DNA of 64,000 bases from Rhodopseudomonas pseudopalustris (lineage in GTDB: Bacteria > Pseudomonadota > Alphaproteobacteria > Rhizobiales > Xanthobacteraceae), in contig NZ_FODT01000006.1 of the NCBI RefSeq assembly GCF_900110435.1, forward strand, positions 1 through 64,000. Reading direction: 5' to 3'. Shown here in pieces: positions 44,654 to 60,308 of this stretch. Made by a program: the position numbers and the translations under genes. Within the stretch, counting starts at the first letter, position 1; every line of letters starts with the position of its first letter. The notes below the pieces were generated by a model. That model saw only the letters and a program-made list of their open reading frames with translations. It made no database searches and was not told the DNA's origin.

Positions 44654-45619
44654 ATGGTAAGGGTAGCAGGAGCGGATTTCCAGAAGGAAGTTCTGTTCGC
44701 GTTGGGCGGTGGCGATTCGCAGATCAACATCGCTGTGCTGGATGGACCGGTTGATCGGACCCATGATTGCTTTCGTGGCGCGCGGCTGGTCCCGCTCGAC
44801 ACCGCGGCGGCTGAGGGTTCCGACGGACGCGCGACCGCGCAGGGGACGCATATTGCCAGCCTGATCTTCGGCCAGCCGTGCAGTTCGGTCGAAGGCGTCG
44901 CTCCGCTGTGCCGCGGATTGATCGCACCGATCTTCAGCGACGATCGGCTCGACTGTTCTCAGGCGGAACTGGCGCAGGCGATCACGATCGCGCTCGATCA
45001 CGGCGCCCATATCATCCAGATCAGCGGCGGCCTGTTCGGTGGACCGCGGCAGCCAACCGCAGAACTGCTTGATGCAGTCGCACGGTGCAACGCGGACAAC
45101 GCGCTGATCGTCGCCGGCGCCGGCCGTGACGGTTGCGGCAGCCTGCTGCGCCGTTGCGGCGCGACCAATCTTCTCCCGGTCGGCGCAATCGACCAGCACG
45201 GCCGGCTGATCGACGGCGGCGACGCCAGCCTGCACGAGATCGGCATTGCTGTGCCGGGCGCCAATCTGATCGGCGCAGCGCCGCAAGGCGGCATCGACAG
45301 CCGTCGCGGCGCGAACTACGCGGCCGCGCTGATTGCCGGGATCGCCGGGCTGCTGCTCGGCACGCAGCGCCAGACCGGACGGACGCTTGATCCCGGCGCG
45401 GCGGTCGAGGCGATGCTGAGCACCGCCACGCCGCGCGTGGCGGCGCGGGCGTATGAATGCCACCGCGCTTGGATCGGCCTGGCGAATGTCGAAGCCGCCG
45501 CGGTGCGCCTGAACGACGGGATGTACGACACCGCCACGGGGACGCCGTTCCAACTGTGGCATCGCGCCCAGACGAGCGCGAAATGGTCGGATCACGCAGC
45601 GTTCCGGCCGCGGGCGTGA
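44654..45619 (+). CDS. PatA-like subtilase, predicted inactive
   Basis: A 321-residue protein with the S8 subtilase fold closest in style to the protease domain of cyanobactin PatA (INIAVLDGPVDRTHDCF; CRGLIAPIFSDD; AHIIQISGG). The Asp (D30 in VLDGPVD) and His (H66 in QGTHIAS) are kept. The Ser block normally reading GTSxA is GANYA here (N221), and the oxyanion Asn of GND is Arg (R158 in GAGRDG). It should fold but not cut peptide bonds, so it may be a binding or scaffold protein. No signal peptide is visible. Its 3' end overlaps the convergent DUF2478 gene by 28 bases. The start is chosen where homology begins, with GGGGTGAA before it. Confidence 0.8.
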   Translation: MVRVAGADFQKEVLFALGGGDSQINIAVLDGPVDRTHDCFRGARLVPLDTAAAEGSDGRATAQGTHIASLIFGQPCSSVEGVAPLCRGLIAPIFSDDRLDCSQAELAQAITIALDHGAHIIQISGGLFGGPRQPTAELLDAVARCNADNALIVAGAGRDGCGSLLRRCGATNLLPVGAIDQHGRLIDGGDASLHEIGIAVPGANLIGAAPQGGIDSRRGANYAAALIAGIAGLLLGTQRQTGRTLDPGAAVEAMLSTATPRVAARAYECHRAWIGLANVEAAAVRLNDGMYDTATGTPFQLWHRAQTSAKWSDHAAFRPRA

Positions 45620-46206
45620 CCGCGCCACCACGCTTCCAGCGCCTCGGCGTCCGGCGGCAACGAGATCGATAGGCCCTGTGCGAAATCCTGCCACACGACT
45701 TCGGCCTTCGGCGTGACCACACAGGCGACCGGCACGCCGGCCGCCACCGCCGCCTGAAACGCCGACATCAAACCACCGTGCTGCGCCTCCTGCCCGCCGA
45801 ACCGGCTCAGCACCACCAGTTCGGGATTCCCCGCGATCGCGCGCTCGACCGCGCCGGCCGCCAGGGCCAGCGACGACGAATTGAGATTGCAGGCCTGCGA
45901 TCCCGATCCGAGATTCTGATGCATCGCGTAGCGATCGCCGGTGGCGATGTCGAGCAACTCGCTGCGACACTCGCAGCCGTCATGGCCGCCGCCGTGACCT
46001 TCCCCATGACTCTCGCCGTGTCCTGCGCCATGTCCTGCGCCGTGTTGGCGGAGCCCGGTCTCTTCCGGCGGCACGATCACGCCGACGATGACGACGCCCT
46101 CGGCCTTGCGGCGGAGCGCGAAGGCGGTCAGCACGTCGGCGGCCGGCGTGCCGGGACCGCCACGCACCGCAGCGATCGCGATCGATTGGTTGCTTTCAAA
46201 CGACAT
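45592..46206 (-). CDS. DUF2478 protein with His-rich insert
   Basis: A 204-residue protein of the DUF2478 family, usually found beside molybdate-transport genes. The fold looks P-loop-like (IAIAAVRGGPGTPAADVLTA; ELVVLSRFGGQEAQHGG). Between them, around residues 55-80, is an unusual stretch of GHG/HG repeats with about a dozen His and a Cys pair (GCECRSEL), probably binding metal ions. A paralogue at 51458 lacks this insert. It lies downstream of modC in the same direction, with GGGGA before the ATG. Its role in molybdenum metabolism is inferred from context. Confidence 0.85.
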   Translation of the reverse strand: MSFESNQSIAIAAVRGGPGTPAADVLTAFALRRKAEGVVIVGVIVPPEETGLRQHGAGHGAGHGESHGEGHGGGHDGCECRSELLDIATGDRYAMHQNLGSGSQACNLNSSSLALAAGAVERAIAGNPELVVLSRFGGQEAQHGGLMSAFQAAVAAGVPVACVVTPKAEVVWQDFAQGLSISLPPDAEALEAWWRGHARGRNAA

Positions 46207-46362
46207 TGTCGAATCCCCTTCAACACGACCAGACACAGGGCGTCGTTGATCAGACACGATTGGTAATCGCGTAGCTGACCGAGACGCCGTCTCAGTGAAT
46301 TGAGGACTATGCGAAGTCCGTGCCGAACGGCGGATGCAGCCGCCGCGCGATGGCGGCCGAAA

Positions 46363-47493
46363 TTACTTCGTCGCCTCGCTCACGCCCCGCTCCGACGCCA
46401 GGGCCACGCCCTTGACCTGCGCGAACACCTCGATGCCCTCGGCGAGCTGCAACTGATCCCACGAACGCCGCGTCACCCGCGCCAGCAGCCGCGCGCCATT
46501 GCCGTTTGGACCGAGCCCCATCACGACCAGCATTTCGTTCGGACCGACCGGCGAGGTCGAGACGATCCGGGCGGACAACGCATTGAGGATCGAGGTCGCG
46601 CGCGGCGCCTCGCGCGCGAGGCTGACATCGCCCGCCGCGATCCTGATCCGCCGGCGCGCGCCGGGCTCGACCGGCCCCGACGGCACCAGCAGGCGGCCAC
46701 CATCGACCCGCAGCGTCAGCAGCCCATAATTCGCATCATACGCCTCGGCGATGGCGGCGAAATTCACCGCGGCGTCGCGCGCGGTCGCAAGCGGCAGCGC
46801 CGGATCGCTCTGCAGATCGGACAGCGGCCCGACGCCGATCACATGGCCTGCCCGCATCAGGATCAGATGATCGGCGAGCCGCTCGATTTCGGTGATGTCG
46901 TGGCTGACATAGATCACCGGCAGCGACAGCCGGGCATGAAGCCGCTCCAGGAACGGCAGGATCTCGTCCTTGGTCAGCCGGTCGAGCGCCGACAGCGGCT
47001 CGTCCATCAGCAGCAATTTGGGTTGCGACAGCAGCGCGCGGCCGATCGCGACGCGCTGCCGCTCGCCACCGGACAGATTGCGCGGCGCGCGATCGAGCAA
47101 CCGCGCCAGCCCGAGCAGTTCGATCACTTCGTCGAACGCGATCACGCCGGCCGCCCCGCCGGCGTCGCCGCGCGGCGCGCCGTAAACCAGGTTGGCCTTC
47201 ACCGACAGATGCTGGAACAGGCTTGCTTCCTGGAAGACGTAGCCGATCGGCCGCTGATGCGGCTTCAGAAAGGTGGAGTCGTCCTGCCAGACGTCGCCGT
47301 CGACATCGCACAGGCTGCCCGGCAGATGCTGCAGTCCAGCAAGGCAGCGCAGCACCGTGGACTTGCCGCAGCCGCTCGGGCCGAACAGGCCGGTGATGCC
47401 GGTCGCCGGAACACTGAACGACGCATCGAGGGCGAAGCCGCCGAGCCGGCCGCGGAATTCGCCACGAATCATGCGCGGGAAGATCGCTCTCAT
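46363..47493 (-). CDS. modC: Molybdate ABC transporter ATP-binding protein
   Basis: A 376-residue ATPase. Walker [10 protein letters not shown], signature [15 protein letters not shown] and Walker [13 protein letters not shown] are all present, and the C-terminal ~100 residues form a Mop/TOBE-type molybdate-binding domain. With ModB it powers uptake of molybdate (and tungstate) captured by ModA. The ATG overlaps the modB stop (ATGA), showing coupling. Confidence 0.96.
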
Positions 47494-48179
47494 CCCCTGA
47501 GCCGTGCGGTGCGCTTTTCAAGAATCATCATGGTCAGGATCACGACGAAGGCGAACGCGGCCATGCCGCCGGCGAGGATGTTGGCCTCGCGCCATTGCGA
47601 GGTCTCGACATAGTCGTAGATCGCGACCGACAGCACTTTGGTGCTACCGGGAATGTTGCCGCCGATCATCAGCACGATGCCGAATTCGCCGACGGTGTGG
47701 GCGAAGCCGAGCACCGCGCCGGCGAGAAAGCCCGGCCGCGCCAATGGCATCGCCACCGTCCAGAACGCCTTCATCGGCGAGGCGCGCAGCGTCGCCGCGA
47801 CTTCGAGAGGCCGGTCGCCGATCGCATCGAAGGCGTTGCGGATCGGCTGCACCACGAACGGCATCGAATAGATCACCGAACCGAACACCAGTCCGCCGAA
47901 GGTGAAGGCGAGCGTCCGCCCGCCCCACAGGCTAGCGAGCGCGCCGCCCGGACCGTCCGGCCCCATCAGCACCAGCAGATAGAAGCCGAGCACGGTCGGC
48001 GGCAGCACCAGAGGCATCGCCACCACAGCGGCGACGCCCTCTTTCCAGGGCGCTTTCGAGCGCGACAGCCACCACGCCACCGGCGTTCCCACGATCAGCA
48101 GGATCACCGTGGTGATCACCGCCAATTCGATGGTGAGACTGACCGGCTGCCAGATGTCGGGCGGAAGTCCGGACATCAT
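47490..48179 (-). CDS. modB: Molybdate ABC transporter permease
   Basis: A 229-residue inner-membrane protein with about five or six membrane helices. The permease EAA-type loop appears as [20 protein letters not shown]. It forms the channel of ModABC. Two ATG codons are adjacent at 48179 and 48176; no clear ribosome site distinguishes them. It lies 47 bases after modA and overlaps modC. Confidence 0.95.
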
Positions 48180-48226
48180 AGCAACGGGGCCACCGCGAGC
48201 GACCGCACTAACCGCGGACTCAAGGC

Positions 48227-48997
48227 TCAGCTCGCCTTGGCGGGCGCGGCGAGTTCATAACCGAACTTCTCGATGATCGCCCGCGACTGCGGTCCCTTCA
48301 AGAAGTCGATGAACGCCTTCGCGGCCTCGTTGGCCTCGCCCTTCTTCAGCAGCACCGCGTCCTGGGTGATCGGCTTGTAGAGATTCTGCGGCACCATCCA
48401 GCGCGAGCCTTCCTTGTCGTTGATGACCTGCGACAGCGCGACGAAGCCGACTTCGGCATTGCCGGTCTGCACGAACTGGAAGGCCTGGGTGATGTTGGCG
48501 CCCTCGACCAGCTTCGGCTTGAGATCGTCATAGAGCTTCAGCGCCTGCATCGTCTCCACAGCGGCAGCGCCATAGGGCGCGGCGACCGGATTGCAGATCG
48601 AAACCTTGGCGAACTTCGCTTCTTTCAGCGTTTCCTCGCCCTTCACCACGCCGGGCGCCTTGCTCCACAGCACGAGCTTGCCGATCGCATAGGTGAAGAT
48701 GCTGCCCTTCACGACGAGCCCATCGTCCTCGAGCTTTTTCGGACGCGCGGAGTCGGCCGACAGGAACACCTCGAACGGCGCATCCTGAGTGATCTGGGTG
48801 TAGAACTGGCCGCTCGAACCGAACGACAGCACCAGTTCGTGACCGGTCTTGGCCTTGAAGGCCGCGGCGATCTCCTTGACCGGTTCGGTGAAATTGGCCG
48901 CGACCGCGACCGTGGCGGACGCCGCGAAGGCCTGGCCTGCCGAAAGGCAGGCGACGAGAGCGACGGGCACGGTGAGTTTTGCGACGAGCCGCAGCAT
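48227..48997 (-). CDS. modA: Molybdate-binding periplasmic protein
   Basis: A 256-residue solute-binding protein. A signal peptide (about 1-26) precedes [18 protein letters not shown] and [15 protein letters not shown], which carry the residues that bind the tetrahedral anion, and [11 protein letters not shown] near the C-terminus. AGGA lies eight bases before the ATG at 48997; the frame stays open 12 codons upstream. It sits 32 bases after modE in one operon. Confidence 0.95.
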
Positions 48998-49029
48998 GTT
49001 GATGGTCCTCACGTCGATACTCCTTGGGG

Positions 49030-49821
49030 TCAATCGATGGCGACGATGACATGCGCGGCGTCGAACAACGCGCAGGCCGGATCGCCGGGGGAAAGCTTCA
49101 TGTCTTCGGCGCTGCGCGCGGTGATCGAGGCGGCGAGTGTCTTGCCGCCGCCGATGTCGAGCACGATCTCGGCGTTGACCGCGGAGACGTCGCTACGCCG
49201 GACCACGCCGCGCACGCAATTGCGCGCCGACACCAGCGGCGCCTCGCTGCCCGGCGAGATCAGCACGAACGGCGCCTTGATCAGCACGATCACGTCGCGC
49301 CCGACCACCAGACCGAGGCTGCGCACGCTCTCGCTGGTGAGCAGCGCGTAGATCGTGGTGTCGGTCGACACCGCAACCGCGATTTCGGCGCTCAGCGTGT
49401 CCGACTTGATATCGGTGATCGCGCCGCGAAGGGCGTTGCGGGCGCTGGTTTTCATGAAGAATCCGGAGACGAGGTTGATCGGGGAAATGCCGGTGCCGGC
49501 GAGGTCCGGTTCGAGGCTGCGGAACACCCGCGCCATCTCGGCTTCGAGTCGGCCGAACGCCTCGATCACGCGCACGCCGGTCGGCGTCAGCACCGCGCCG
49601 CCCCCGGACTTGCCGCCGGTCCTGGTTTCCAGCAGCGGCCGCCCGAACACGTTGGTCATCGCGTCGAGCGCATCCCAGGCCGCCTTGTAGCTGAGGCCCG
49701 CCGCTTTCGCGCCGGCGGTGATGCTGCCTTCGCGCGCCACCGCCTGCAGCAGCCGGATGCGATCTCGGCCGACGCCGGAAATGTCCTTCCGCGTTAAGGT
49801 GACCGTGGCCTCTATCGGCAT
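49030..49821 (-). CDS. modE: Molybdate-responsive regulator
   Basis: A 263-residue ModE. The N-terminal winged helix (about 20-90, with GSITAGAKAAGLSYKAAWDA) is followed by two molybdate-binding Mop domains (KTSARNALRGAITDIKSDT; VSARNCVRGVVRRSDVSAV). Molybdate-bound ModE typically represses molybdate uptake genes. As first gene of modEABC it probably controls its own operon and the divergent mop gene through the palindrome at 49845-49867. The frame stays open far upstream; the ATG at 49821 is chosen because the domain starts there. Confidence 0.95.
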   Translation of the reverse strand: MPIEATVTLTRKDISGVGRDRIRLLQAVAREGSITAGAKAAGLSYKAAWDALDAMTNVFGRPLLETRTGGKSGGGAVLTPTGVRVIEAFGRLEAEMARVFRSLEPDLAGTGISPINLVSGFFMKTSARNALRGAITDIKSDTLSAEIAVAVSTDTTIYALLTSESVRSLGLVVGRDVIVLIKAPFVLISPGSEAPLVSARNCVRGVVRRSDVSAVNAEIVLDIGGGKTLAASITARSAEDMKLSPGDPACALFDAAHVIVAID

Positions 49822-49844
49822 AAAGACGGGCTCGCCTGTGGTTG

Positions 49845-49867
49845 TATAGCGGATATATATAACGCTA
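49845..49867. promoter_or_regulatory. ModE-like operator between modE and mop
   Basis: An imperfect palindrome with half-sites TATAGCG and AACGCTA around an AT-rich centre (GATATATAT) fits the known ModE box, whose arms carry CGCTATA and TATAACG elements. It lies 24 bases ahead of modE and 39 ahead of mop and would serve both divergent promoters. Confidence 0.75.
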
Positions 49868-49905
49868 CCCCCGATCGGGACCATCTGCAACCAGGAGATT
49901 CGGCT

Positions 49906-50118
49906 ATGAAGATCAGCGCCCGCAATCAGCTCAAGGGCACCATCATCGACATTCAGAAAGGCGCGACCACGTCGCATGTCCGGATCGACATCGGCGCTGG
50001 TGCGGTGGTTACCGCAGCGATCACCAACGAAGCGGTCGACGAGCTCAAGCTCGCCAAGGGCCAGGCGGCGACCGCGGTGATCAAGGCTTCGGACGTGCTC
50101 GTCGCCATCGGCGACTGA
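49906..50118 (+). CDS. mop: Molybdopterin/molybdate-binding protein Mop
   Basis: A 70-residue single Mop/TOBE domain: MKISARNQLKGTIIDIQKG and NEAVDELKLAKGQAATAVIK. Such proteins assemble as hexamers that store molybdate in the cytoplasm. It is divergent from modE across an 84-base gap with a ModE-like operator. The start is preceded by AGGAGA. Confidence 0.95.
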   Translation: MKISARNQLKGTIIDIQKGATTSHVRIDIGAGAVVTAAITNEAVDELKLAKGQAATAVIKASDVLVAIGD

Positions 50119-50170
50119 CGACGATGATCCGTCGACGCCGCGTGCGCGCCGCGCCGACCGGAGCTGCCTG

Positions 50171-51172
50171 TCAGAACAAGTAGTTGAAGCGCAGCATTGC
50201 CTGGTGGCGCTCGAAATCCTGGAGGTCGAGATGCAGCGTTTCGCAACTCGCCCTGCCCGCGACCTGCGTGCTCCAGGTGCCTGAAACACCGAAATTGTGC
50301 GAGAGGTGCATCGCGAAGGTCGGGCCGAGATACACCGCGTCACCGACGAAGCGGTCGAGACCGAGCCCCTCATAGGCCCGCACGTAGCGCGCCTCGACGC
50401 CGAGGATCAGATCCGGGCCGACCTTGTAGGACAGCGCACCGTTCACCGCGAGTTCCGAATCACGACTCCATTGGTTGCTGAGTGCGCGCGATGCGCCGCC
50501 GGAGAACCAGACATTGACGGTCGCGAACAACGCGTTGTGGATCAGTTCCTTATCCATCAGCGCGGCAAATTCGCTGCCATAGGTTTGGATGTCGAAGCCG
50601 GTCAGTTCGTCGACCCGATTCCACCCCGGCGCGGCGTGCAGTGTCAGGCCGAACGGCATGACATCGCGATCGAGCAGCCTGTAGCGGAATTCCAACGATG
50701 CACCCGCCAATGCCGTGCGACGGTTGTCGATCATGTCCGGCACGCCGCTGACATGGGTGGAACTGAAACTGACGCCCGGCGCTACACGAAATGAGTCGGT
50801 CAGGACGAACTTGACCTGAGACAACACGCCGACGCCGGTATACGAGCCAAATCGCTTGCTGAAGCGGCCGACATTCTCGATCTCGAGTTCGATCTCGCCT
50901 TTCTTGCCGATGTCGGAGCCCATGCTGAAGCCGAAGATGTGCTCGGTATCCACGCCGTCGCTCTGAGCCTTCGCGTCGAGCAGCTCGGCTCGCGGCTTGA
51001 TGGCCCGCACGGCAGCGCTGTTCGACGAGGTCGAGGCCGTGGACAGCCATGACGGCGAGTCGCCGGCGTCCGCGCTGCTAGATAGAACCGAGCCAAGCGC
51101 CAATGCGCCGATCGCGATCCCGAAACGAAATCCTGCGTGGCGAACGCGCGCCACGACCAACTGCAACAACAT
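50171..51172 (-). CDS. Probable outer-membrane beta-barrel protein
   Basis: A 333-residue protein of unknown function. A signal peptide (about 1-36, with FGIAIGALALGSVL) is followed by many alternating beta-strand segments and a terminal Phe in RFNYLF, the usual outer-membrane barrel ending. A single aromatic-rich barrel is likely. It lies within the molybdenum gene cluster, convergent with mop, but nothing links it to molybdenum. The ATG at 51172 has only a G-rich stretch before it. Confidence 0.7.
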   Translation of the reverse strand: MLLQLVVARVRHAGFRFGIAIGALALGSVLSSSADAGDSPSWLSTASTSSNSAAVRAIKPRAELLDAKAQSDGVDTEHIFGFSMGSDIGKKGEIELEIENVGRFSKRFGSYTGVGVLSQVKFVLTDSFRVAPGVSFSSTHVSGVPDMIDNRRTALAGASLEFRYRLLDRDVMPFGLTLHAAPGWNRVDELTGFDIQTYGSEFAALMDKELIHNALFATVNVWFSGGASRALSNQWSRDSELAVNGALSYKVGPDLILGVEARYVRAYEGLGLDRFVGDAVYLGPTFAMHLSHNFGVSGTWSTQVAGRASCETLHLDLQDFERHQAMLRFNYLF

Positions 51173-51457: not shown

Positions 51458-52024
51458 CTATTTATAGACTTCGCACATCGTCGCGGGAGCGCGGGCCGCG
51501 CGGCGCCCGCGGCCGTGCAGCGTCGACCACCACACATCCAACGCCTGCCGATCGCAGCGCAGCCGCACGCTCATGCCGTCGGCGAATCTGATCCAGGCGT
51601 CGAAGCGATGGCTCGGCACCGCGATCACCAGCGGAATATCTGCGCTCAGCGCCTGGACGATCAGATACAACAACCCCTGACCTTCGCTCTCGTGCTGGCC
51701 GAAGCGATTGATGATCAGAAGATCCGCGCCCTGCTCCATGGCGCGGGCCACGCGCGCGCCGGCGTCGAGCAAGCGGCCGGGATCGAGCGCGCAACCGGTC
51801 GCCTGCAAGCCGAGGTCCTGATACAGCGGCAGTTCCTCGCCGTTGTGGACCAGCCTCGCCGACAAGCGCGGCGCGTCGGCCTGCCGATGCCCGAATTGCA
51901 CCAGCCCGACCGAGCGGTAACCCCTTGCATTGAGATCGGCCGCGAACGCCTGCAGGACGCCGTCCGGATCATCGCCGCGGTCATAGACCAGCGCGGCCAC
52001 TTCACATTGGGAGTCAAAGGTCAT
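51458..52024 (-). CDS. DUF2478 protein (second copy)
   Basis: A 188-residue DUF2478 protein without the His-rich insert of its relative at 45592. It keeps VAALVYDRGDDPDGVLQAFA at the start and LLIINRFGQHESEGQGLLYL in the middle. DUF2478 genes sit near molybdate or nitrogenase genes in many bacteria; the activity is unknown. A ModE-like palindrome lies 71 bases upstream, supporting molybdenum control. It is divergent from the nifJ-like gene. Confidence 0.85.
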   Translation of the reverse strand: MTFDSQCEVAALVYDRGDDPDGVLQAFAADLNARGYRSVGLVQFGHRQADAPRLSARLVHNGEELPLYQDLGLQATGCALDPGRLLDAGARVARAMEQGADLLIINRFGQHESEGQGLLYLIVQALSADIPLVIAVPSHRFDAWIRFADGMSVRLRCDRQALDVWWSTLHGRGRRAARAPATMCEVYK

Positions 52025-52117: not shown

Positions 52118-52256
52118 AGCGACGCTTTTCGAGCAATTTGGACCTTTGGATGCACTGCAACATCCAGTTTGGCCACATCCGCACCCCGACACCTGCAACT
52201 GCCTTGCATCTAGGCTGATCGCAATTTTATTACCCAAAAGAAGCATAATCTTCTCC

Positions 52257-52272
52257 TTTGATGCGCATCAAA
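52257..52272. promoter_or_regulatory. FNR/FixK-type anaerobic box ahead of nifJ
   Basis: TTTGATGCGCATCAAA is a perfect 16-base palindrome containing TTGAT-N4-ATCAA, the binding consensus of FNR, FixK and AadR. It lies about 214 bases upstream of the nifJ-like start, within the 461-base gap (52025-52485) that also holds the ModE-like site. It predicts induction when oxygen is low. The rest of the gap shows no gene. Confidence 0.85.
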
Positions 52273-52485
52273 TCGAGGGTGTGGCTCGCATGCTAGTGCA
52301 CCGCACACATGGCTACGGCTTTACCGACCCTGGGATCCTGACCACCGTCGGAAGCCACTTCTGAAGATCGAGACAAGGTTTGCCGTCCGCTGCCAGCGCA
52401 GCCGCCGCGGCCCGGAAACGCTTTTCTCAGACGCGGCCGCGCGGCGGCATCGCTGCGCCAACAGTCAATGGAAATGGAACGACCC

Positions 52486-55400
52486 ATGAACGCAAAATAT
52501 CCCGGCATTCCCTCTGTCATTCACGGCAACGGCGCGGTCGCGCAGGTGATGGGTCATGTCTGCGGCGGCGTCATCGGCTACCCGATCACGCCCTCGACCG
52601 AGATCTCCGAAATCTACGAGGCGTTCCGCTCCTCGGGAGGCTGCAATGTCTGGGGCAAGCATCCGTTCTTCTTCGAGCCCGAGGGCGAGCACTCAGCGCA
52701 GTCCGGCGCGCTCGGCGCGGCGCTGACCGGCGGCAAGTTCATCTCCAACGCTTCGTCGAGCCAGGGCATCCTGTACGGGCTGGAGTCGCATTACGTCACC
52801 GTCGGCAAGAAGGTCGGCGGCTTCGTGCTGCAGGTCGCCGCGCGCGTGGTGTCGAAGCATTCGCTGAACGTGATGGCCGGCCATGATGATGTCTATGCGC
52901 TGCTGTCGTCGGGCTACACCATCCTGTTCGGCTCCAATCCGCAGGAAGCGGCCGACCTCGCCGCGATCTCCTATAAGGTCGCAGCGACCTCGCTGATCCC
53001 GGTCGCGAACGCGATGGACGGCTTCGCCACCTCGCACATGCTCAGCGAAGCGCTGATGCCCGAACCCGAATTGCTGCGCGACTTCCTCGGCGACCCGGCC
53101 GGCCGCATCAAGTGCCCGACGGTGGCGCAGGACATGCTGTTCGGCGCCAAGGGCCGTGTGTTCCAGCTCAAGCAATATCTGGCGCGGCACGATGCCGACT
53201 TCGTGCCGGCCGACCTCGCGGCGCTGAAGGCGCATCTCGACGCCAATGCCGACGCGATCGAAACCGACGGCGACGCCCGGCTGATCGACGCGACGCTGCA
53301 ATTCGTGCCGGAAGAACTCCGCGCGCAATGGAAGCGGCAGTGGATCAACGCGCCCGAAAAGGGCACAAGGCAGCTGGTGCCGGCGCTGGTCGACATCGAC
53401 AATCCGGGCCTCACCGGCGGCGTGCAGAACCAGCCGGACTTCCAGGCCGGCGCGGTTGACCACCGCACCCACTTCGTCAACGCGGTGCCGCGCTTCGTCA
53501 GGGAGGCGATGGACGAATACGCCAGCCTGACCGGCCGCGAATACAAGCCGGTGATGACCTATATGTGCGACGACGCCGAGACCGTGATGGTCGGCCTCGG
53601 TTCGGTCACCGACGACGCCGAGGCGGTCGCGGCTTACTTGCGCTCGCAGGGCAAGAAGGTCGGCGTGATCTCGGTCAAGATGCTGCAGCCGTTCCCGGAG
53701 GCCGAACTGGTCGCCGCGCTGAAGGGCAAGAAGGCGGTCACCATCCTCGAACGTTCGGACGTCACCGCGCTCACCAGCCTGGTGACGCAGGCGCTGTGCA
53801 AGGCGCGCGAGAACGGCGACGCCGGCGTGCGTCATGCCGGCATCCCGGCGCTCGACAAGCTGCCGAAGATCACCACCGCGATCTTCGGCCTCGGCGGCCA
53901 CGATCTGCAGCCGCGCGACCTGATCGCCTGCTACGCCAATATGGAGAAGCCCGACAGCGCGCCGTTCGTGTATCTCGGCACCAGGTTCTTCACCGAGAAC
54001 GCCTCGCCGCGGATGGCGGCGCTGCAGAACCGGTTGAAGGCGGCCTATCCGGAAACGGAATTCATGGCGCTGCAGACCGGCACCAACCCGAACCTGCTGC
54101 CGCCGTCGGCGTTCCGCATCCGCTTTCACTCGATCGGCGGCTACGGCACCATCGCTTCCGGCAAGCTCTTGACCGACATCCTCGCCGGCGCGCTCGACAT
54201 GCACTCGAAGTCGGCGCCGAAATACGGCTCGGAAAAGAGCGGCGCGCCGACCAACTATTATATCACGCTGTCGCCGGAGCCGGTGAAGATCACCAACGCC
54301 GAGCTGGAAGACGTCGAAATCGTGATCTCGCCTGACCACAAGGTGTTCGTGCACACCAACCCGCTGCGCAGCCTGATCGAAGGCGGCACCTTCATCCTGC
54401 AGACCAATCTGTCACCGCTGGAAGTGTGGCGTGATCTGCCGGCCAAGGCGCGCGCCACCATCCGCGACAAGAAGATCAAGTTCTATCTGATCGACGCCTT
54501 CGCGGTGGCCAAGCGCCACGCGCCGACCGCCGAACTCGAAACCCGGATGATGGGCATCGCCTTCATCGGCGCGGTGTGCGGCAATGTCGACCGCGTGGTG
54601 GCCGACGCCTCGCAGGACGCGATGCTGAACAAGATCCGCCAGCAGATCGCCAAGAAGTTCGGCGCCAAGGGTGGCGACATCGTCGAAGGCAATATGGCGG
54701 TGATCCGCGAGGGTCTGGAGGCGACGCACAAGATCGACTACGACGCGCCGGAGTTCAGCGAGGACGCCATCAAGGCCGCGCCGAAGAAGAAGGCCGACGC
54801 CTCGATCTCGGCCTCGATGTGCCGCGCCGCCTCGCCGGCTTCGGCGTCGGGTTTCCTCGATCCGCAGTATTACGACGACGTGCTCGCCGGCCCGTTCCGC
54901 GACGGCACCATTGCGGACGCGCCAGTGCTGCCCGGCATCGGCATGTTCATGCCGGCGGGCTCCGCCGCCGCGAAGGACAAGGGCCTGTTCCGCCGCAACG
55001 TGCCGGAGTTCAAGGCCGATCTCTGCACCGGCTGCATGGAATGCGCGCTGGTCTGCCCGGACGCCGCGATCCCCAACGCCGTGCACGATATCCATGAACT
55101 GCTCGGCACCGCGATCCAGCAACTCGACATCGCGCCCGCGCAGCAGGAAGCGCTGCGCGGCCAGGTGCCGAGCCTGAGCGAGGCGATCCGTGAGGTCTAT
55201 CGCAGCGGCAAGGACGACAAGCCGTTCCACGAGGTCGTGACGCAGGCGGCCGACGCGCTCGACGTCGGCAACGCCACGCTGAAGCGCAATTTCGGCAAGC
55301 TGTCGGCGGCGCTGTCGGTGTATCCGGTGTCGCGGACGCGGCCGTTCTTCGACGCGATGGAAAAGAGCCAGCCGGGCACCGGCGGTCTGTATTCGGTCAG

Positions 55401-57477
55401 CGTCGACCCGTGGAAGTGCTCGGGCTGTCTCGAATGCATCGACGTCTGCGGCCCCGGCGCGCTGGTCGATCGCGAGCAGGACGAACCGTTGCTGGAGCAG
55501 TTGCAGGCCCGGTTCGAATTCCTCAGCCGCACGCCGAACACCCCGGCCCGGTTCACTGAAAGCGCGACCAAGCCCGACGGCGAAACCAAACGGCTGATGC
55601 TCGACCGCGCCAATTACTACGCGACCACCGGCGGCCACGGCGCCTGCCGCGGCTGTGGCGAAGTCACAGCGATCCGTCTGGTCACCTCGACCAACCACGC
55701 GATCCACGACAAGCGGCGCAAGGAGCACACCCGCGAACTGGAAGGTCTCATCGATCAACTGACCGCCAAGCGGGCGCAGGTCGCCTCCGACCCGGCGCGC
55801 GCCGCGCGGATCGACGCGACGCTGAAGACGCTGGAAAAGCGGCTGTATCTCTATGAGAGCGGCCCGACCGGCAACGGCCCGTCCGGCATGGTGATCGCCA
55901 ACGCCACCGGCTGTTCGAGCGTCTACGCCTCGACGTTCCCGTTCAACCCCTACACCGATCCGTGGGTGAATAGCCTGTTCCAGGACACCCCGGCGGTCGC
56001 GAAAGGCATCTTCGAAGGCCTCACCGCGCAGGCCTCCGACGACTTCCGCGCGCTGCGTGTCGCCAGACTGGAATTGGCGGACGCCTACGATCCGGCCAAG
56101 CACGACGGTTACTTCCGCTACTTCGGATGGGGCCAGTTCACGCCCGACGAACGCAGCCTGCTGCCGACCGTGCTGAGCATGGGCGGCGACGGCGCCACTT
56201 ACGACATCGGCTTCGGCGCGCTGTCGCGGCTGTTGTCGACCAAGACCCCGATCAAGGTCGTGGTGCTGAACACCGGCGCGTACTCCAACACGGGCGGCCA
56301 GACCTCGACCGCGAGCTTGACCGGCCAGGACTCCGACCTGTCGCGGTTCGGCATCGCCAATCACGGCAAACAGGAAGCCCGCAAGGAACTCGGCCTGATC
56401 GCCTCGTTCCATCCCAACGTGTTCGTGGTGCAGACCGCGACCGCGCTGCAGGGTCACTTCCTGAAGAACGTGATGGAGTTCCTCAACCACACCTCCTCGC
56501 CGGCGGTGCTCGACGTCTACACCCCCTGCCAGGCCGAGCACGGCATCGGCGACGCGGTCGCCAACCGCCAGGCCCGCAAGGCGGTGGAGAGCCGGATGAA
56601 TCCGGTGTTCGTCCACGATCCGCGCAAGGGCAACAAGCTCGACAACTGGTTCTCGCTCGACGGCAACCCCGAGCCCGACCAGGATTGGGCGTCGCAGTCG
56701 ATCGAATATGTCGACGACAACGGCGCGACCCAATTGCTCAAGGCCAAGGTGACGCCGGCCGATTTCGCCTACAGCGAAGTCCGCTTCCGCAAGCAGTTCA
56801 AGCCGCTGAAGAAGGACGCCGACGGCCTCCCGGTCGATGAATACGTCGCGCTGGACGCGGACGCCCGCGCCGGCAAGACGCCGTTCATCTACGGCACCGA
56901 CGGCGACAAGAAGCTGGTCAAGCTCGCGGTCGGCGAGTCGGTGATCGCGCTGGTCGAGGAGCGGCGCAAATATTGGCGCACGCTGCAATATCTCGGCGGC
57001 TTCGACGTCCGCGCGCTGGACGAAAGCCACCGCGTCGAACTCGAGGCGCTGCAGCACCAGTACGAAGAATCGGTCAAGTCGCGGGAGACCTCGCTCGACG
57101 CCATCGCGCGCGGCATGAGCGAACTCGCGGCAAGCTCGAACGCGCCGGCCGCGAACGGCTTCGCCGGGCTGATGGCCGGACTTGCGTCGTCCCCGGCTGC
57201 CGCGGCGCAGACCAACGGCGCGAAGCCGGCCAATGGTGCCAATGGCGGCGCGCATATCGACATCGCCGAGACCGACCTCGACAAGTGCACCAACTGCAAG
57301 AGCTGCTATCAGGACGTGCCTGAAGTGTTCGAACTGACCAAGATCGTCGTCGGCGGCGCCTCCAAGGACGTCGCCCATGTGATCCCGGGCGTGTTCGGCA
57401 AGCTCAAGGTGACGCCCGAATTGTCGGCGAAGCTGAACCGTGCGGCGGCGAATTGCGACGCGGAGATCATCCGATGA
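52486..57477 (+). CDS. nifJ: Pyruvate:ferredoxin (flavodoxin) oxidoreductase with extra C-terminal ferredoxin domain
   Basis: A 1663-residue single-chain 2-oxoacid oxidoreductase. It begins with the substrate domain (VIGYPITPSTEISE), has two 4Fe-4S motifs (CTGCMECALVCP near 846 and CSGCLECIDVC near 977), the third-cluster CRGCG and the thiamine-binding MGGDGATYDIGFGALSR with NTGGQTST near 1230-1275. It should convert pyruvate and CoA to acetyl-CoA and CO2 and reduce ferredoxin. It is about 450 residues longer than typical NifJ: there is an internal coiled-coil-like insert (RRKEHTRELEGLIDQLTAKR) and a C-terminal ferredoxin-like domain (CTNCKSCYQDVPEVFE near 1601) after a Gly/Ala/Asn linker. 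The ATG at 52486 follows GGAACGACCC; upstream ATGs at 52468 and 52474 are possible. Its stop overlaps the next gene. Confidence 0.92.
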   Translation: MNAKYPGIPSVIHGNGAVAQVMGHVCGGVIGYPITPSTEISEIYEAFRSSGGCNVWGKHPFFFEPEGEHSAQSGALGAALTGGKFISNASSSQGILYGLESHYVTVGKKVGGFVLQVAARVVSKHSLNVMAGHDDVYALLSSGYTILFGSNPQEAADLAAISYKVAATSLIPVANAMDGFATSHMLSEALMPEPELLRDFLGDPAGRIKCPTVAQDMLFGAKGRVFQLKQYLARHDADFVPADLAALKAHLDANADAIETDGDARLIDATLQFVPEELRAQWKRQWINAPEKGTRQLVPALVDIDNPGLTGGVQNQPDFQAGAVDHRTHFVNAVPRFVREAMDEYASLTGREYKPVMTYMCDDAETVMVGLGSVTDDAEAVAAYLRSQGKKVGVISVKMLQPFPEAELVAALKGKKAVTILERSDVTALTSLVTQALCKARENGDAGVRHAGIPALDKLPKITTAIFGLGGHDLQPRDLIACYANMEKPDSAPFVYLGTRFFTENASPRMAALQNRLKAAYPETEFMALQTGTNPNLLPPSAFRIRFHSIGGYGTIASGKLLTDILAGALDMHSKSAPKYGSEKSGAPTNYYITLSPEPVKITNAELEDVEIVISPDHKVFVHTNPLRSLIEGGTFILQTNLSPLEVWRDLPAKARATIRDKKIKFYLIDAFAVAKRHAPTAELETRMMGIAFIGAVCGNVDRVVADASQDAMLNKIRQQIAKKFGAKGGDIVEGNMAVIREGLEATHKIDYDAPEFSEDAIKAAPKKKADASISASMCRAASPASASGFLDPQYYDDVLAGPFRDGTIADAPVLPGIGMFMPAGSAAAKDKGLFRRNVPEFKADLCTGCMECALVCPDAAIPNAVHDIHELLGTAIQQLDIAPAQQEALRGQVPSLSEAIREVYRSGKDDKPFHEVVTQAADALDVGNATLKRNFGKLSAALSVYPVSRTRPFFDAMEKSQPGTGGLYSVSVDPWKCSGCLECIDVCGPGALVDREQDEPLLEQLQARFEFLSRTPNTPARFTESATKPDGETKRLMLDRANYYATTGGHGACRGCGEVTAIRLVTSTNHAIHDKRRKEHTRELEGLIDQLTAKRAQVASDPARAARIDATLKTLEKRLYLYESGPTGNGPSGMVIANATGCSSVYASTFPFNPYTDPWVNSLFQDTPAVAKGIFEGLTAQASDDFRALRVARLELADAYDPAKHDGYFRYFGWGQFTPDERSLLPTVLSMGGDGATYDIGFGALSRLLSTKTPIKVVVLNTGAYSNTGGQTSTASLTGQDSDLSRFGIANHGKQEARKELGLIASFHPNVFVVQTATALQGHFLKNVMEFLNHTSSPAVLDVYTPCQAEHGIGDAVANRQARKAVESRMNPVFVHDPRKGNKLDNWFSLDGNPEPDQDWASQSIEYVDDNGATQLLKAKVTPADFAYSEVRFRKQFKPLKKDADGLPVDEYVALDADARAGKTPFIYGTDGDKKLVKLAVGESVIALVEERRKYWRTLQYLGGFDVRALDESHRVELEALQHQYEESVKSRETSLDAIARGMSELAASSNAPAANGFAGLMAGLASSPAAAAQTNGAKPANGANGGAHIDIAETDLDKCTNCKSCYQDVPEVFELTKIVVGGASKDVAHVIPGVFGKLKVTPELSAKLNRAAANCDAEIIR

Positions 57478-60308
57478 GCAGCGTCACCGGCACGATCCCC
57501 AACGAGGTGCTGCGCTACGAACAGGCGCGCAGCACACTCGAAACATCGCGTAACGAGCTGGAAGAGCTGCAGCACAGCGAGGCTGTCGGCGTCTTCCAGA
57601 AGCAGATTGCGCTGTTGCAGAAGCGGCTGCTGAACGACCCGGCGTCGCTGCGCAACATGTTCATCTCCGACGGCACCCAGGCGATCGTCTGGGAGTTCCA
57701 GCAAAGCGAACTCGGCGCAGCTTTCACCACGATGCTGTGGGAGCTGCTCAAGCGCGACGACGACATGAGCGCGATCCTGCAGCGCTTCATCTGGGCGCTG
57801 CCGCTCAAGTTCAAGCGCAAGTTCATCAAGGCGATCGACGTGCATCTGCGCGAACGCTATCCGATGTTCGAAAACCTGTCGGAAGGCTGGCCGGGCGAGA
57901 CATTCATCCCGCCTTACATCCGCCCGGCGGAAGAGCGGGCGGTCGACTTCGACCTCGTCAACCAGGGCTATCTCGGTTACCAGTCGATCGGCTACTCGTT
58001 GCGTGAATGCGAGCTGTTCGTCTGGCTGGAAGTGCTGCGCGACAAGCAGTGCGACGACAAGCCGTGCGAGATCGGCATCCTGGTCCACGGCAAGAGCGAG
58101 CCGAAGGGCGGCTGCCCGGTGAAGATCCACATCCCCGAGATGCTGGACCTGCTCGGCACCGGCCGGCATCGCGAAGCGCTGGAGCTGATCGAGAGCTGCA
58201 ACCCGCTGCCGAACGTCACCGGCCGCGTCTGCCCGCAGGAACTGCAGTGCCAGGGCGTCTGCACCCATACCAAGCGCCCGATCGAGATCGGCCAGCTCGA
58301 ATGGTATCTGCCCGAGCACGAGAAACTGGTGAACCCCAACGCCAATGACCGCTTCCTCGGTCGGGTCTCGCCATGGGCGGCGGCCGCGAAACCGCCGATC
58401 GCGGTGGTCGGCTCCGGCCCGTCGGGCCTGATCAACGCCTATCTGCTGGCGGTCGAAGGCTTCCCCGTCACGATCTTCGAGGCGTTCCACGATCTCGGCG
58501 GCGTGCTGCGTTATGGCATTCCGGAATTCCGGCTGCCCAACACGCTGATCGACGACGTGGTCGAGAAGATCACGCTGCTCGGCGGTCGCTTCGTGAAGAA
58601 TTTCGTGGTCGGCAAGACCGCGACGCTGGAAGACCTCAAGGCCGAGGGCTTCTGGAAGATCTTCGTCGGCACCGGCGCCGGGCTTCCGACCTTCATGAAC
58701 GTGCCGGGCGAGCATCTGCTCGGCGTGATGTCGGCTAACGAGTTCCTGACCCGCGTCAATCTGATGCGCGGCCTGGACGATCGCTACGAGACGCCATTGC
58801 CTGAAACCAAAGGCAAGAACGTGTTCGTGATCGGCGGCGGCAACACCGCGATGGACGCGGCGCGCACCGCTAAGCGACTCGGCGGCAACGTCACCATCGT
58901 GTATCGCCGCACCCAGAGCGAAATGCCGGCCCGCGTCGAGGAGCTGCATCACGCGCTCGAGGAAGGCATCAATCTCGCGGTGCTGCGGGCGCCGCGCGAA
59001 TTCATCGGCGACGACCACACCCACTTCGTCACCCACGCGCTGCTCGACGTCAACGAACTCGGCGAAGCGGACAAGTCCGGCCGCCGCAGCCCGAAGCCGA
59101 CCGGCGAGATTGAACGCGTGCCGGTCGACCTGGTGATCATGGCGCTGGGCAACACCGCCAACCCGATCATGAAGGACGCCGAGCCGGGCCTGAAGACCAA
59201 CAAATGGGGCACCATCGAGGTCGAGCAGGGTTCGCAGCGCACCTCGATCAAGGACGTCTACTCGGGCGGCGACGCCGCGCGCGGCGGCTCCACCGCGATC
59301 CGTGCGGCCGGCGACGGCCAGGCCGCGGCCAAGGAAATCGTCGGCGAGATCCCGTTCACTCCGGCGGAGATCAAGACACGCGTTGAACGTGCGGCGCGCT
59401 ACACCGAGCTCGGCCAGATCGCACAGACCATCGTCAACAAGGTGCCACTGGCCGGCGGCATCGTCGAGTTCACGGTGCGCGCCCCGATGGTAGCGCGTTC
59501 GGCGCAGGCCGGACAATTCGTCCGCGTGTTGCCGTGGGAGAAGGGCGAACTGATCCCGCTGACGCTCGCCGACTGGGATGTCGAAAAGGGCACCATCGAT
59601 CTCGTCGTGCAGGGCATGGGCACCTCGTCGCTGGAGATCAACCGGATGGCGATCGGCGACGCGTTCTCTGGCGTCGCCGGCCCGCTCGGCCGCGCCTCGG
59701 AGCTGCATCGCTACGAGGGCAACCAGACCGTGGTGTTCTGCGCCGGCGGCGTCGGCCTGCCGCCGGTCTATCCGATCATGCGGGATCATCTGCGGCTCGG
59801 GAACCACGTCACGCTGATCTCCGGCTTCCGCGCCAAGGAGTTCCTGTTCTGGACCGGCGACGACGAGCGCGTCGGCAAGCTCAAGCAGGAGTTCGGCGAC
59901 CAGCTGTCGCTGATCTACACCACCAATGACGGCAGCTATGGTGTCAAAGGCTTCGTCACCGGACCGCTCGAAGAGATGATGAAGGCCAACCAGCAGGGCA
60001 TCGGCCGCACCATCGCGGAGGTGGTCGCGATCGGCCCGCCGCTGATGATGCGGGCGGTCTCCGACCTGACCAAGCCGTATGGCGTGAAGACGGTGGCGAG
60101 CCTCAACTCGATCATGGTGGACGCGACCGGCATGTGCGGCGCCTGCATGGTGCCGGTGACGATCGACGGCAAGATGGTGCGCAAGCACGCCTGCATCGAC
60201 GGCCCGGAGATCGACGCCCACATCATCGACTGGGACAAGTTCCTGCCGCGCTTCAACGCCTTCAAGGCGCAGGAGCTGGAGAGCAAGGCCAAGCACGGGT
60301 TCGCGTAA
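57474..60308 (+). CDS. NfnB-NfnA-like fusion: NADPH/ferredoxin oxidoreductase
   Basis: A 944-residue flavo-iron-sulfur protein. After an unrecognised N-terminal part (about 1-160) comes a GltD/NfnB-like region with a cluster-binding CPQELQCQGVC (near 253), FAD site VVGSGPSGLINAYLLA (near 310) and nucleotide site VIGGGNTAMDAARTA (near 452). From about 650 it resembles NfnA/PyrK: FAD/NAD-binding domain (AGQFVRVLP; CAGGVGLPPVYPIM) and a 2Fe-2S site in DATGMCGACMVP with KHACIDGPE. Nfn couples NADH, NADPH and ferredoxin by flavin-based bifurcation; here both subunits would be one chain in reverse order. Whether it bifurcates is inference. ATGA overlap with nifJ means coupled translation. Confidence 0.88.
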   Translation: MSSVTGTIPNEVLRYEQARSTLETSRNELEELQHSEAVGVFQKQIALLQKRLLNDPASLRNMFISDGTQAIVWEFQQSELGAAFTTMLWELLKRDDDMSAILQRFIWALPLKFKRKFIKAIDVHLRERYPMFENLSEGWPGETFIPPYIRPAEERAVDFDLVNQGYLGYQSIGYSLRECELFVWLEVLRDKQCDDKPCEIGILVHGKSEPKGGCPVKIHIPEMLDLLGTGRHREALELIESCNPLPNVTGRVCPQELQCQGVCTHTKRPIEIGQLEWYLPEHEKLVNPNANDRFLGRVSPWAAAAKPPIAVVGSGPSGLINAYLLAVEGFPVTIFEAFHDLGGVLRYGIPEFRLPNTLIDDVVEKITLLGGRFVKNFVVGKTATLEDLKAEGFWKIFVGTGAGLPTFMNVPGEHLLGVMSANEFLTRVNLMRGLDDRYETPLPETKGKNVFVIGGGNTAMDAARTAKRLGGNVTIVYRRTQSEMPARVEELHHALEEGINLAVLRAPREFIGDDHTHFVTHALLDVNELGEADKSGRRSPKPTGEIERVPVDLVIMALGNTANPIMKDAEPGLKTNKWGTIEVEQGSQRTSIKDVYSGGDAARGGSTAIRAAGDGQAAAKEIVGEIPFTPAEIKTRVERAARYTELGQIAQTIVNKVPLAGGIVEFTVRAPMVARSAQAGQFVRVLPWEKGELIPLTLADWDVEKGTIDLVVQGMGTSSLEINRMAIGDAFSGVAGPLGRASELHRYEGNQTVVFCAGGVGLPPVYPIMRDHLRLGNHVTLISGFRAKEFLFWTGDDERVGKLKQEFGDQLSLIYTTNDGSYGVKGFVTGPLEEMMKANQQGIGRTIAEVVAIGPPLMMRAVSDLTKPYGVKTVASLNSIMVDATGMCGACMVPVTIDGKMVRKHACIDGPEIDAHIIDWDKFLPRFNAFKAQELESKAKHGFA

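Follow-up and report, generated by a model that had tools for sequence, protein, structure and literature searches.

We analyzed a 64,000-nucleotide stretch of the Rhodopseudomonas pseudopalustris genome (contig NZ_FODT01000006.1, positions 1 to 64,000; hereafter the window) and found that two overlapping genes in it behave as one unit. Gene 1 encodes a giant protein resembling pyruvate:ferredoxin oxidoreductase (PFOR) and ending in a ferredoxin domain, and gene 2 encodes NfnB and NfnA in a single chain. We give an even chance to the reading that the two products make up a dedicated two-protein pyruvate:NAD(P) oxidoreductase that would work by electron confurcation at low oxygen. Each protein belongs to a known kind or comes close to one; new are the fixed pairing, the putative ferredoxin arm, the changed entry cluster of gene 2 and a parallel in rnf operons. 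The gene pair is as follows.

52468..57477, + strand: gene 1, one-chain giant PFOR-like protein, 1669 amino acids; an alternative in-frame ATG (M7) lies at 52486.
57474..60308, + strand: gene 2, NfnB-NfnA in a single chain, 944 amino acids; NF009415 / Pattern C Nfn.

At the junction, ATCCGATGAGC, the TGA of gene 1 (57475-57477) lies on the ATG of gene 2 (57474-57476), whose own stop codon is at 60306-60308. This ATGA overlap, claimed in an earlier note on this DNA, can be read directly at 57474-57477. Third-position GC is 0.89 in both genes and matches the coding pattern of the genome. Open frames on the antisense (-) strand also cover both genes (54412-57378, 988 amino acids, and 57309-60296, 995 amino acids); these we take as an effect of the high GC content (66%).

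The two genes were surveyed for co-occurrence, as the earlier note had proposed, and their pairing proved tight in the sampled genomes. Among 398 proteobacterial genomes sampled evenly over the phylum, the NCBIfam model NF009415 scored above its cut-off in 9, and the same 9 genomes hold a full-length gene 1 (59-100% identity), with the two genes adjacent in 9/9. These are the source genome and 8 genomes of one other family, in which gene 2 was present in 8/8 sampled. Within the source genus, each gene was found in 16/16 genomes and was adjacent to the other every time, counting one genome (G410) in which the gene-1 PFOR is split over two contigs. In a sample of the class (289 genomes), either gene was found only in the source genome, and both were absent from 288/289. 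A scan of named contigs placed gene 2 beside gene 1 in 19/20 loci, while the contig of the 20th breaks off within gene 1; the hosts were Rhodopseudomonas (relatives at 85-94% identity), Rhodoplanes, a strain filed as Rhodovulum, and metagenome-assembled genomes (MAGs) of Acetobacteraceae, Alphaproteobacteria and Betaproteobacteria. A genome with a gene 1 of 69% identity, whose contig ends ahead of gene 2 (G854), was not scored as paired. In the other family, the gap between the two genes reaches about 90-110 bp. Distances among gene-1 and gene-2 proteins of 20 loci were strongly correlated (Mantel r 0.963, 0/2000 shuffles as high), a result that shared descent would also give. The flanks of 11 loci, compared by the beginnings of their open reading frames (ORFs), most of them unassigned, held no further gene common to all genera. 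Pattern C Nfns have also been named in Actinobacteria (Mobiluncus) and Shewanella.

Gene 1 carries the domain set of a one-chain NifJ-type PFOR, and its parts are listed below; row counts refer to an alignment of 22 orthologues.

52516..53085, + strand: PFOR domain I, residues 17-206, in which T41, R126 and E70/E74 fall at sites conserved among solved PFORs.
55024..55056, + strand: first CxxCxxCxxxCP motif (C853, C856, C859, C863); cysteines in 21/22 rows.
55057..55416, + strand: 120 residues (864-983) separating the two 4Fe-4S motifs; also found in rnf-operon homologues.
55417..55449, + strand: second CxxCxxCxxxC motif (C984, C987, C990, C994); cysteines in 21/22 rows.
55645..56529, + strand: part binding thiamine pyrophosphate (TPP), with proximal-cluster C1060, C1063, C1149 and C1354 and the YSNTGG motif (N1274).
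57130..57285, + strand: Ala/Pro/Gly-rich linker, residues 1555-1606, a predicted flexible tether with a predicted local distance difference test score (pLDDT) below 50.
57274..57474, + strand: single-cluster C-terminal ferredoxin domain (C1607, C1610, C1613, C1663), Fer4_15.

The Pfam matches POR_N, PFOR_II, POR, several Fer4 and TPP_enzyme_C, with the two 4Fe-4S motifs between POR and the TPP domain, follow one another in the NifJ order, and Fer4_15 matches residues 1603-1669, which bears out the claim of a giant PFOR with a built-in C-terminal ferredoxin domain. The protein aligns piecewise with the solved PFORs of Moorella and Desulfovibrio, and Thr41, Arg126, Glu70/Glu74 and Asn1274 fall on conserved positions of these, which we take to be the residues that bind pyruvate and TPP. 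The 12 cluster cysteines of the first three groups (853/856/859/863, 984/987/990/994 and 1060/1063/1149/1354) are kept in 21/22 rows and those of the fourth (1607/1610/1613/1663) in 20/22, the misses being two broken frames. One of these is in Rhodoplanes elegans (L011:7755-12552), broken ahead of the ferredoxin domain, and the other in a betaproteobacterial MAG (L016:10001-14943), broken near residue 150 and with its later part retained, in its own frame, in alignment A2; each break could be real or an assembly error. The stretch between the two 4Fe-4S motifs is 120 residues long in gene 1 vs about 44 in the M. thermoacetica chain. Against TIGR02176, the PFOR equivalog model, gene 1 scores 411.9 bits, under the cut-off of 911.35, and it is therefore termed PFOR-like and not assigned to that model. 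These results suggest that gene 1 is a divergent one-chain PFOR with a PFOR-like function. It is the only full-length match in its own genome; the four other matches are short, and at least some of them come from a phenylglyoxylate dehydrogenase-like cluster. This cluster (L038, G000:C14:70000-84000) passed the PadG and PadI models and represents a further NAD-linked 2-oxoacid oxidoreductase of the genome.

The tail of gene 1 matches Fer4_15 at 33.4 bits (cut-off 22.4). The linker ahead of it is 44-57 residues long and consists of 57-77% A/P/G/S/T/N in all 20 readable rows of the 22, a count that omits the two broken frames. In a weak AlphaFold model, the linker has no structure. Its composition and its modelled disorder are consistent with a flexible tether, on which the ferredoxin domain would form a swinging arm.

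A ferredoxin tail of this kind is also found in PFORs of rnf operons. We identified 13 homologues with 34-41% identity to gene 1, about 1640-1720 amino acids long where complete; a single-cluster ferredoxin domain stands at the C-terminal end in 13/13, and gene 2 is present in 0/13. Directly downstream of the PFOR lies rnfC in 12/13 loci, rnfB lies upstream in all 10/10 loci with an upstream flank on the contig, and rnfD, rnfG and rnfA are mostly downstream, in the order rnfB-PFOR-rnfC-rnfD-rnfG...rnfA (rnf names were taken from NCBIfam for two loci). For the remaining homologue, L063, no rnf gene turned up within 6 kb. The rnf-operon loci, all in proteobacteria, are L033:6559-16871, L034:6301-16632 and L053-L062. 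In the two fully aligned rnf-type homologues, the 4Fe-4S motifs are likewise separated by the long stretch. These PFORs thus have the same build and ferredoxin tail as gene 1, but their partner is Rnf, which uses NAD+ and pumps ions, and not Nfn. In both neighbourhoods, Nfn and rnf, a ferredoxin-tailed PFOR therefore has a ferredoxin-oxidising module at its side. In a tree of 21 PFORs, a branch (100/100) separated the 13 Nfn-paired proteins from the others. Six rows labelled nifJ in this tree are split alpha-gamma ORFs that fill 40% of the columns, with a long-branch warning, and because of these rows and long branches the tree leaves undecided whether the nearest kin of the Nfn-paired PFORs are rnf-type.

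Gene 2 matches NF009415 over 944/944 positions at 2004.6 bits (cut-off 1519). Its parts, with conservation counted in 18 aligned rows, are listed here.

57474..57863, + strand: N-terminal extra region, residues 1-130, predicted all-helical, with no Pfam match.
58038..58328, + strand: two-cluster region R189-D190-x2-C193-x4-C198-x15-C214-PV and GRVCPQExQCxxxC...E276.
58386..59342, + strand: NfnB-like domains for flavin adenine dinucleotide (FAD) and NADPH, residues 305-623; R353 (EFRLP) and R478-R479 invariant in 18 rows.
59418..60305, + strand: NfnA-like FAD/NADH domains; 2Fe-2S ligands D883, C888, C891 and C907 invariant in 18 rows.

The Pfam matches are Fer4_20 and Pyr_redox_2 (NfnB/GltD-like), followed by DHODB_Fe-S_bind (NfnA/PyrK-like), and the protein aligns to the solved NfnI chains in the order L-S (B, then A). 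The single chain seen in the earlier note, with B before A and so opposite to the usual nfnA-nfnB gene order, was thus borne out, but not its novelty, because fused B-A proteins have been published as Pattern C Nfns (Liang, Huang & Wang 2019, PMC6405883; NF009415 / PRK12779). Like gene 2, Pattern C proteins have the B-A order, are about 200 amino acids longer than other fused Nfns and occur in Alphaproteobacteria, and NF009415 and Pattern C appear to be the same set. The searched text of PMC6405883 calls Pattern C Nfns uncharacterised and gives no PFOR partner for them; to its description of these proteins we add an aspartate (Asp190), an insert and a linker-bearing PFOR partner.

We compared gene 2 with the Nfn motifs, using the definitions and roles given in PMC6405883. 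The proximal cluster of three cysteines and a glutamate (GRVCPQExQC; C214, C253, C259, E276) is kept in 18/18 rows, as are the arginine of EFRLP (the N5-arginine motif) and the two NADPH arginines. The Asp-ligated 2Fe-2S motif, DGTGMCGxC in Nfn, reads DATGMCGAC, with D883 and the three cysteines in 18/18 and a longer spacing to the last cysteine than in Nfn. The distal motif RCx2Cx4Cx3CPV is replaced in 18/18 rows by RDx2Cx4C, then 14-15 residues, then CPV. Here D190 stands at the position of an Nfn cluster cysteine, the segment carries an insert of 11-12 residues relative to Nfn, and D190, C193 and C198 are invariant in 18/18. Two other motifs also differ in 18/18 rows: Gx2ER reads Gx2EW, and ERxPxT, at a-FAD, reads ELIPLT. 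In three AadN-like Nfns of the same genus, the canonical RCx2Cx4Cx3CPV and ERxPxT are present. The distal cluster of gene 2, which in Nfn is thought to be the contact for ferredoxin, thus probably has an Asp ligand and new surroundings.

The earlier note had placed the docking of the C-terminal cluster near the 2Fe-2S site of NfnA, and this is probably wrong. The predicted binding site of ferredoxin is close to NfnB's distal 4Fe-4S cluster, and the 2Fe-2S cluster belongs to the other, high-potential branch (PMC6405883). Docking there would put low-potential electrons onto that branch, where they would be wasted, and we rejected it; electron entry into gene 2 should be at the distal 4Fe-4S cluster of NfnB. 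A glutamate-synthase subunit was also excluded, since gene 2 failed both GltD models (TIGR01317, 173.4 bits against a cut-off of 447.7; TIGR01318, 258.6 bits against 482.95) while matching NF009415 at the score given above.

Partial or related copies stand beside the pair in two genomes. In R. infernalis, a stand-alone NfnA-like copy adjoins the intact pair (L001:18551-19378, equal to G399:C54:3409-4251); it corresponds to residues 669-944 of gene 2 at 96% identity and has an open frame of 291 amino acids. In an alphaproteobacterial MAG, a GltD-like gene lies directly downstream of the pair (L007:18720-20261), with 33% identity to gene-2 residues 214-622.

AlphaFold models of the single proteins, built from 18 and 16 sequences, had mean pLDDT values of 60.7 and 56.9 and a predicted template modelling score (pTM) of 0.48. 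Residues 1-130 of gene 2 were modelled as helices at low confidence, and this region might be a docking part. A Foldseek search with the weak gene-2 model returned Nfn chains by local similarity, with an rmsd of 10-13 Å; its alignments to 5JCA showed 46% identity to the L chain and 45% to the S chain.

Two conserved elements lie upstream of gene 1.

52258..52271, strand not assigned: FNR/FixK-type palindrome TTGATgcgcATCAA, 228 bp ahead of the second possible ATG of gene 1 (M7).
52221..52233, strand not assigned: imperfect palindrome GCAATTTTATTAC (GYAAYTTTRTTRC-like), a second conserved element in 13 Rhodopseudomonas loci, about 30 bp ahead of the FNR/FixK box.

The perfect FNR/FixK palindrome reported in the earlier note is present, exact at these positions. 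TTGATgcgcATCAA occurs as a single exact copy in the window; the whole genome has 21 exact sites of the pattern and 0 of the reversed control pattern. Over 420 bp upstream of 13 Rhodopseudomonas loci, the conservation of the box was 0.99 vs a mean of 0.66, a value reached by 4 of 407 14-mers, the box itself included. A box of the TTGAT-N4-ATCAA type was found at 0-1 mismatch in 13/13 Rhodopseudomonas upstream regions; in 13 upstream regions outside the genus, it was found at 1 mismatch in one, at 2 mismatches in one and not at all in 11. Gene 1 lies on one side of the box and a divergently oriented DUF2478 gene on the other, so the box could serve gene 1, the DUF2478 gene or both. An extended FixK regulon (PMC2908626) and FnrN/FixK targets (PMC4999443) have been described in Rhodopseudomonas. 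The operon is unnamed in the searched text of either paper and the word pyruvate is absent from the searched main text of three regulon papers, which therefore lend FixK control no independent support.

In the neighbourhood of the pair, two DUF2478 genes (45592-46257 and 51458-52024, the second being the one divergent from gene 1) flank a molybdate-transport-like set at 46363-50373, consisting of a solute-binding protein, a permease, an ATPase and a TOBE/HTH_1 regulator. Elsewhere in the window, two 656-amino-acid proteins with near-identical beginnings (14174-16144 and 17014-18984) look like a recent tandem duplication.

The electron path that we propose for the pair would run as follows. Gene 1 would convert pyruvate and CoA to acetyl-CoA and CO2 at TPP, and single electrons would cross its three 4Fe-4S clusters to the fourth, in the ferredoxin domain. 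The arm would then swing to gene 2 and give low-potential electrons to the distal 4Fe-4S cluster (probably three Cys and Asp190), from which they would pass over the proximal cluster (three Cys and Glu276) to the bifurcating b-FAD and on to NADP+. NADH would supply the second electron at the NfnA half, via a-FAD and the 2Fe-2S cluster. The sum would be pyruvate + CoA + NADH + 2 NADP+ -> acetyl-CoA + CO2 + NAD+ + 2 NADPH, about -35 kJ/mol by arithmetic on the potentials given in PMC5861303 (-500 mV for pyruvate, -320 mV for NAD(P)). A regulator of the FixK or FNR type would turn on the operon at low oxygen.

Several results weigh against this proposal. The score of gene 1 (411.9 vs 911.35 bits) is far under the PFOR equivalog cut-off, suggesting that its substrate may differ from pyruvate. 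Of 26 loci scanned, 11 lack the FNR/FixK box and another has a weak one, which means that the family as a whole does not share low-oxygen control. Co-occurrence leans on two sets of related genomes (the source genus and a second family, with 8/8), and the structure models are too weak to reveal contact between the two proteins. With Asp in place of Cys, Gx2EW, ELIPLT and the changed 2Fe-2S spacing, gene 2 could be non-bifurcating, and according to PMC6405883, bifurcation in Nfn relatives cannot be told from sequence.

It is possible, though we think it unlikely, that the operon encodes two independent enzymes drawing on the same free ferredoxin, with the C-terminal ferredoxin domain serving only as an extra exit cluster of the PFOR. 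Six 2[4Fe-4S] ferredoxins are reported for R. palustris (PMC9973337), the weak models reveal no contact, and in the other family a gap of up to about 90-110 bp separates the genes. The strict pairing, the altered ferredoxin-entry site of gene 2 and the tether-like linker argue against a shared carrier. An equally unlikely alternative keeps the same complex but runs it mainly in reverse: NADPH would be bifurcated to NAD+ and the ferredoxin arm, driving the synthesis of pyruvate from acetyl-CoA and CO2 when the host grows phototrophically on acetate. In principle, Nfn can run in both directions (PMC5861303), and there are phototrophs among the hosts on named contigs; at standard potentials, however, this direction would cost about 35 kJ/mol (calculated from values in PMC5861303), and FNR/FixK control alone sets no direction.

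We consider it improbable that gene 1 acts on another 2-oxoacid instead of pyruvate. The low equivalog score would fit such a substrate, and the separate phenylglyoxylate-type oxidoreductase of the genome means that such diversity exists; against it, the Moorella and Desulfovibrio PFORs are its best relatives of solved structure, T41, R126 and N1274 align with pyruvate-binding residues, and gene 1 is the only full-length match in the genome. Very improbable is a role in supplying low-potential electrons to nitrogenase or benzoyl-CoA reductase, the part that NifJ plays in Klebsiella. R. palustris is a nitrogen fixer and a degrader of aromatics, and an Nfn (AadN) can be put to that purpose, but loss of fixC severely impairs its nitrogen-fixing growth despite the PFOR, which was unable to replace FixABCX (PMC9973337); on this evidence, a nif-type electron donor was rejected as the main role. 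Also against such a role, the gene-2 partner would drain electrons to NADP, and the 9 neighbouring ORFs scanned held 0 nif genes; mod (molybdate) genes are, however, present 3-6 kb upstream. The chance that gene 2 encodes a subunit of glutamate synthase or a phenol hydroxylase, as the title of NF009415 suggests, is negligible, given the GltD scores, the NfnA half with its 2Fe-2S motif and the absence of gltB among the same 9 ORFs; NCBIfam titles such as this come from weak similarity.

Two known systems couple a 2-oxoacid oxidoreductase to NAD or NADP in other ways. Phenylglyoxylate:NAD oxidoreductase, PadEFGHI, has its own NAD-linked flavoprotein, the GltD-like PadH only; unlike the gene pair, it consists of separate subunits and has neither a ferredoxin tail nor an NfnA half. 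In Euglena pyruvate:NADP+ oxidoreductase, a PFOR without Nfn is fused to a cytochrome P450 reductase-like domain and thereby coupled to NADP reduction. Gene 1 has the domain order and the TPP and cluster motifs of PFOR / NifJ (PDB 6CIN, 1B0P; TIGR02176), from which it differs by about 500 additional amino acids, the 120 residues between the 4Fe-4S motifs, the long linker and the ferredoxin tail. Gene 2 shares the proximal-cluster, FAD, NADPH and 2Fe-2S ligands of NfnAB / NfnI (PDB 5JCA, 4YLF), from which it differs in being one chain of reversed order, in its extra N-terminal region, in RDx2Cx4Cx15CPV for RCx2Cx4Cx3CPV and in its PFOR partner. R. palustris is named as an Nfn holder (PMC6405883, PMC6085437), and its AadN, a Pattern B Nfn, is a fused protein of the same genus as gene 2 but has the A-B order and serves benzoyl-CoA reductase (PMC9973337). 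Searches of open-licence papers, supplements excluded, turned up no description of this PFOR-Nfn pair, nor of a PFOR with a ferredoxin tail inside an rnf operon. Full novelty is put in question by PMC6405883, where the Fig. 2 legend names PFOR as one of the genes close to nfn in some microbe.

In the usual picture, the ferredoxin-linked oxidation of pyruvate supplies a common pool of free ferredoxin. We propose, tentatively and as something rather less than probable, a class of "wired" PFORs, each with a flexibly tethered ferredoxin domain and docked to a converter of its own, which would be either a single-chain Nfn (pyruvate + NADH -> 2 NADPH, without free ferredoxin) or RnfB (ion gradient and NADH). 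If so, the ferredoxin arm would be a counterpart of the lipoyl arm in the aerobic pyruvate dehydrogenase, the uncharacterised Pattern C Nfn would have a role, and there would be a bifurcating enzyme with a built-in, titratable donor on its low-potential branch. Depending on the partner to which the PFOR is wired, the cell would commit the electrons of pyruvate either to NADPH, through Nfn, or to an ion gradient, through Rnf. Such wiring would also insulate them from nitrogenase and benzoyl-CoA reductase, which bears on an open question in R. palustris (PMC9973337).

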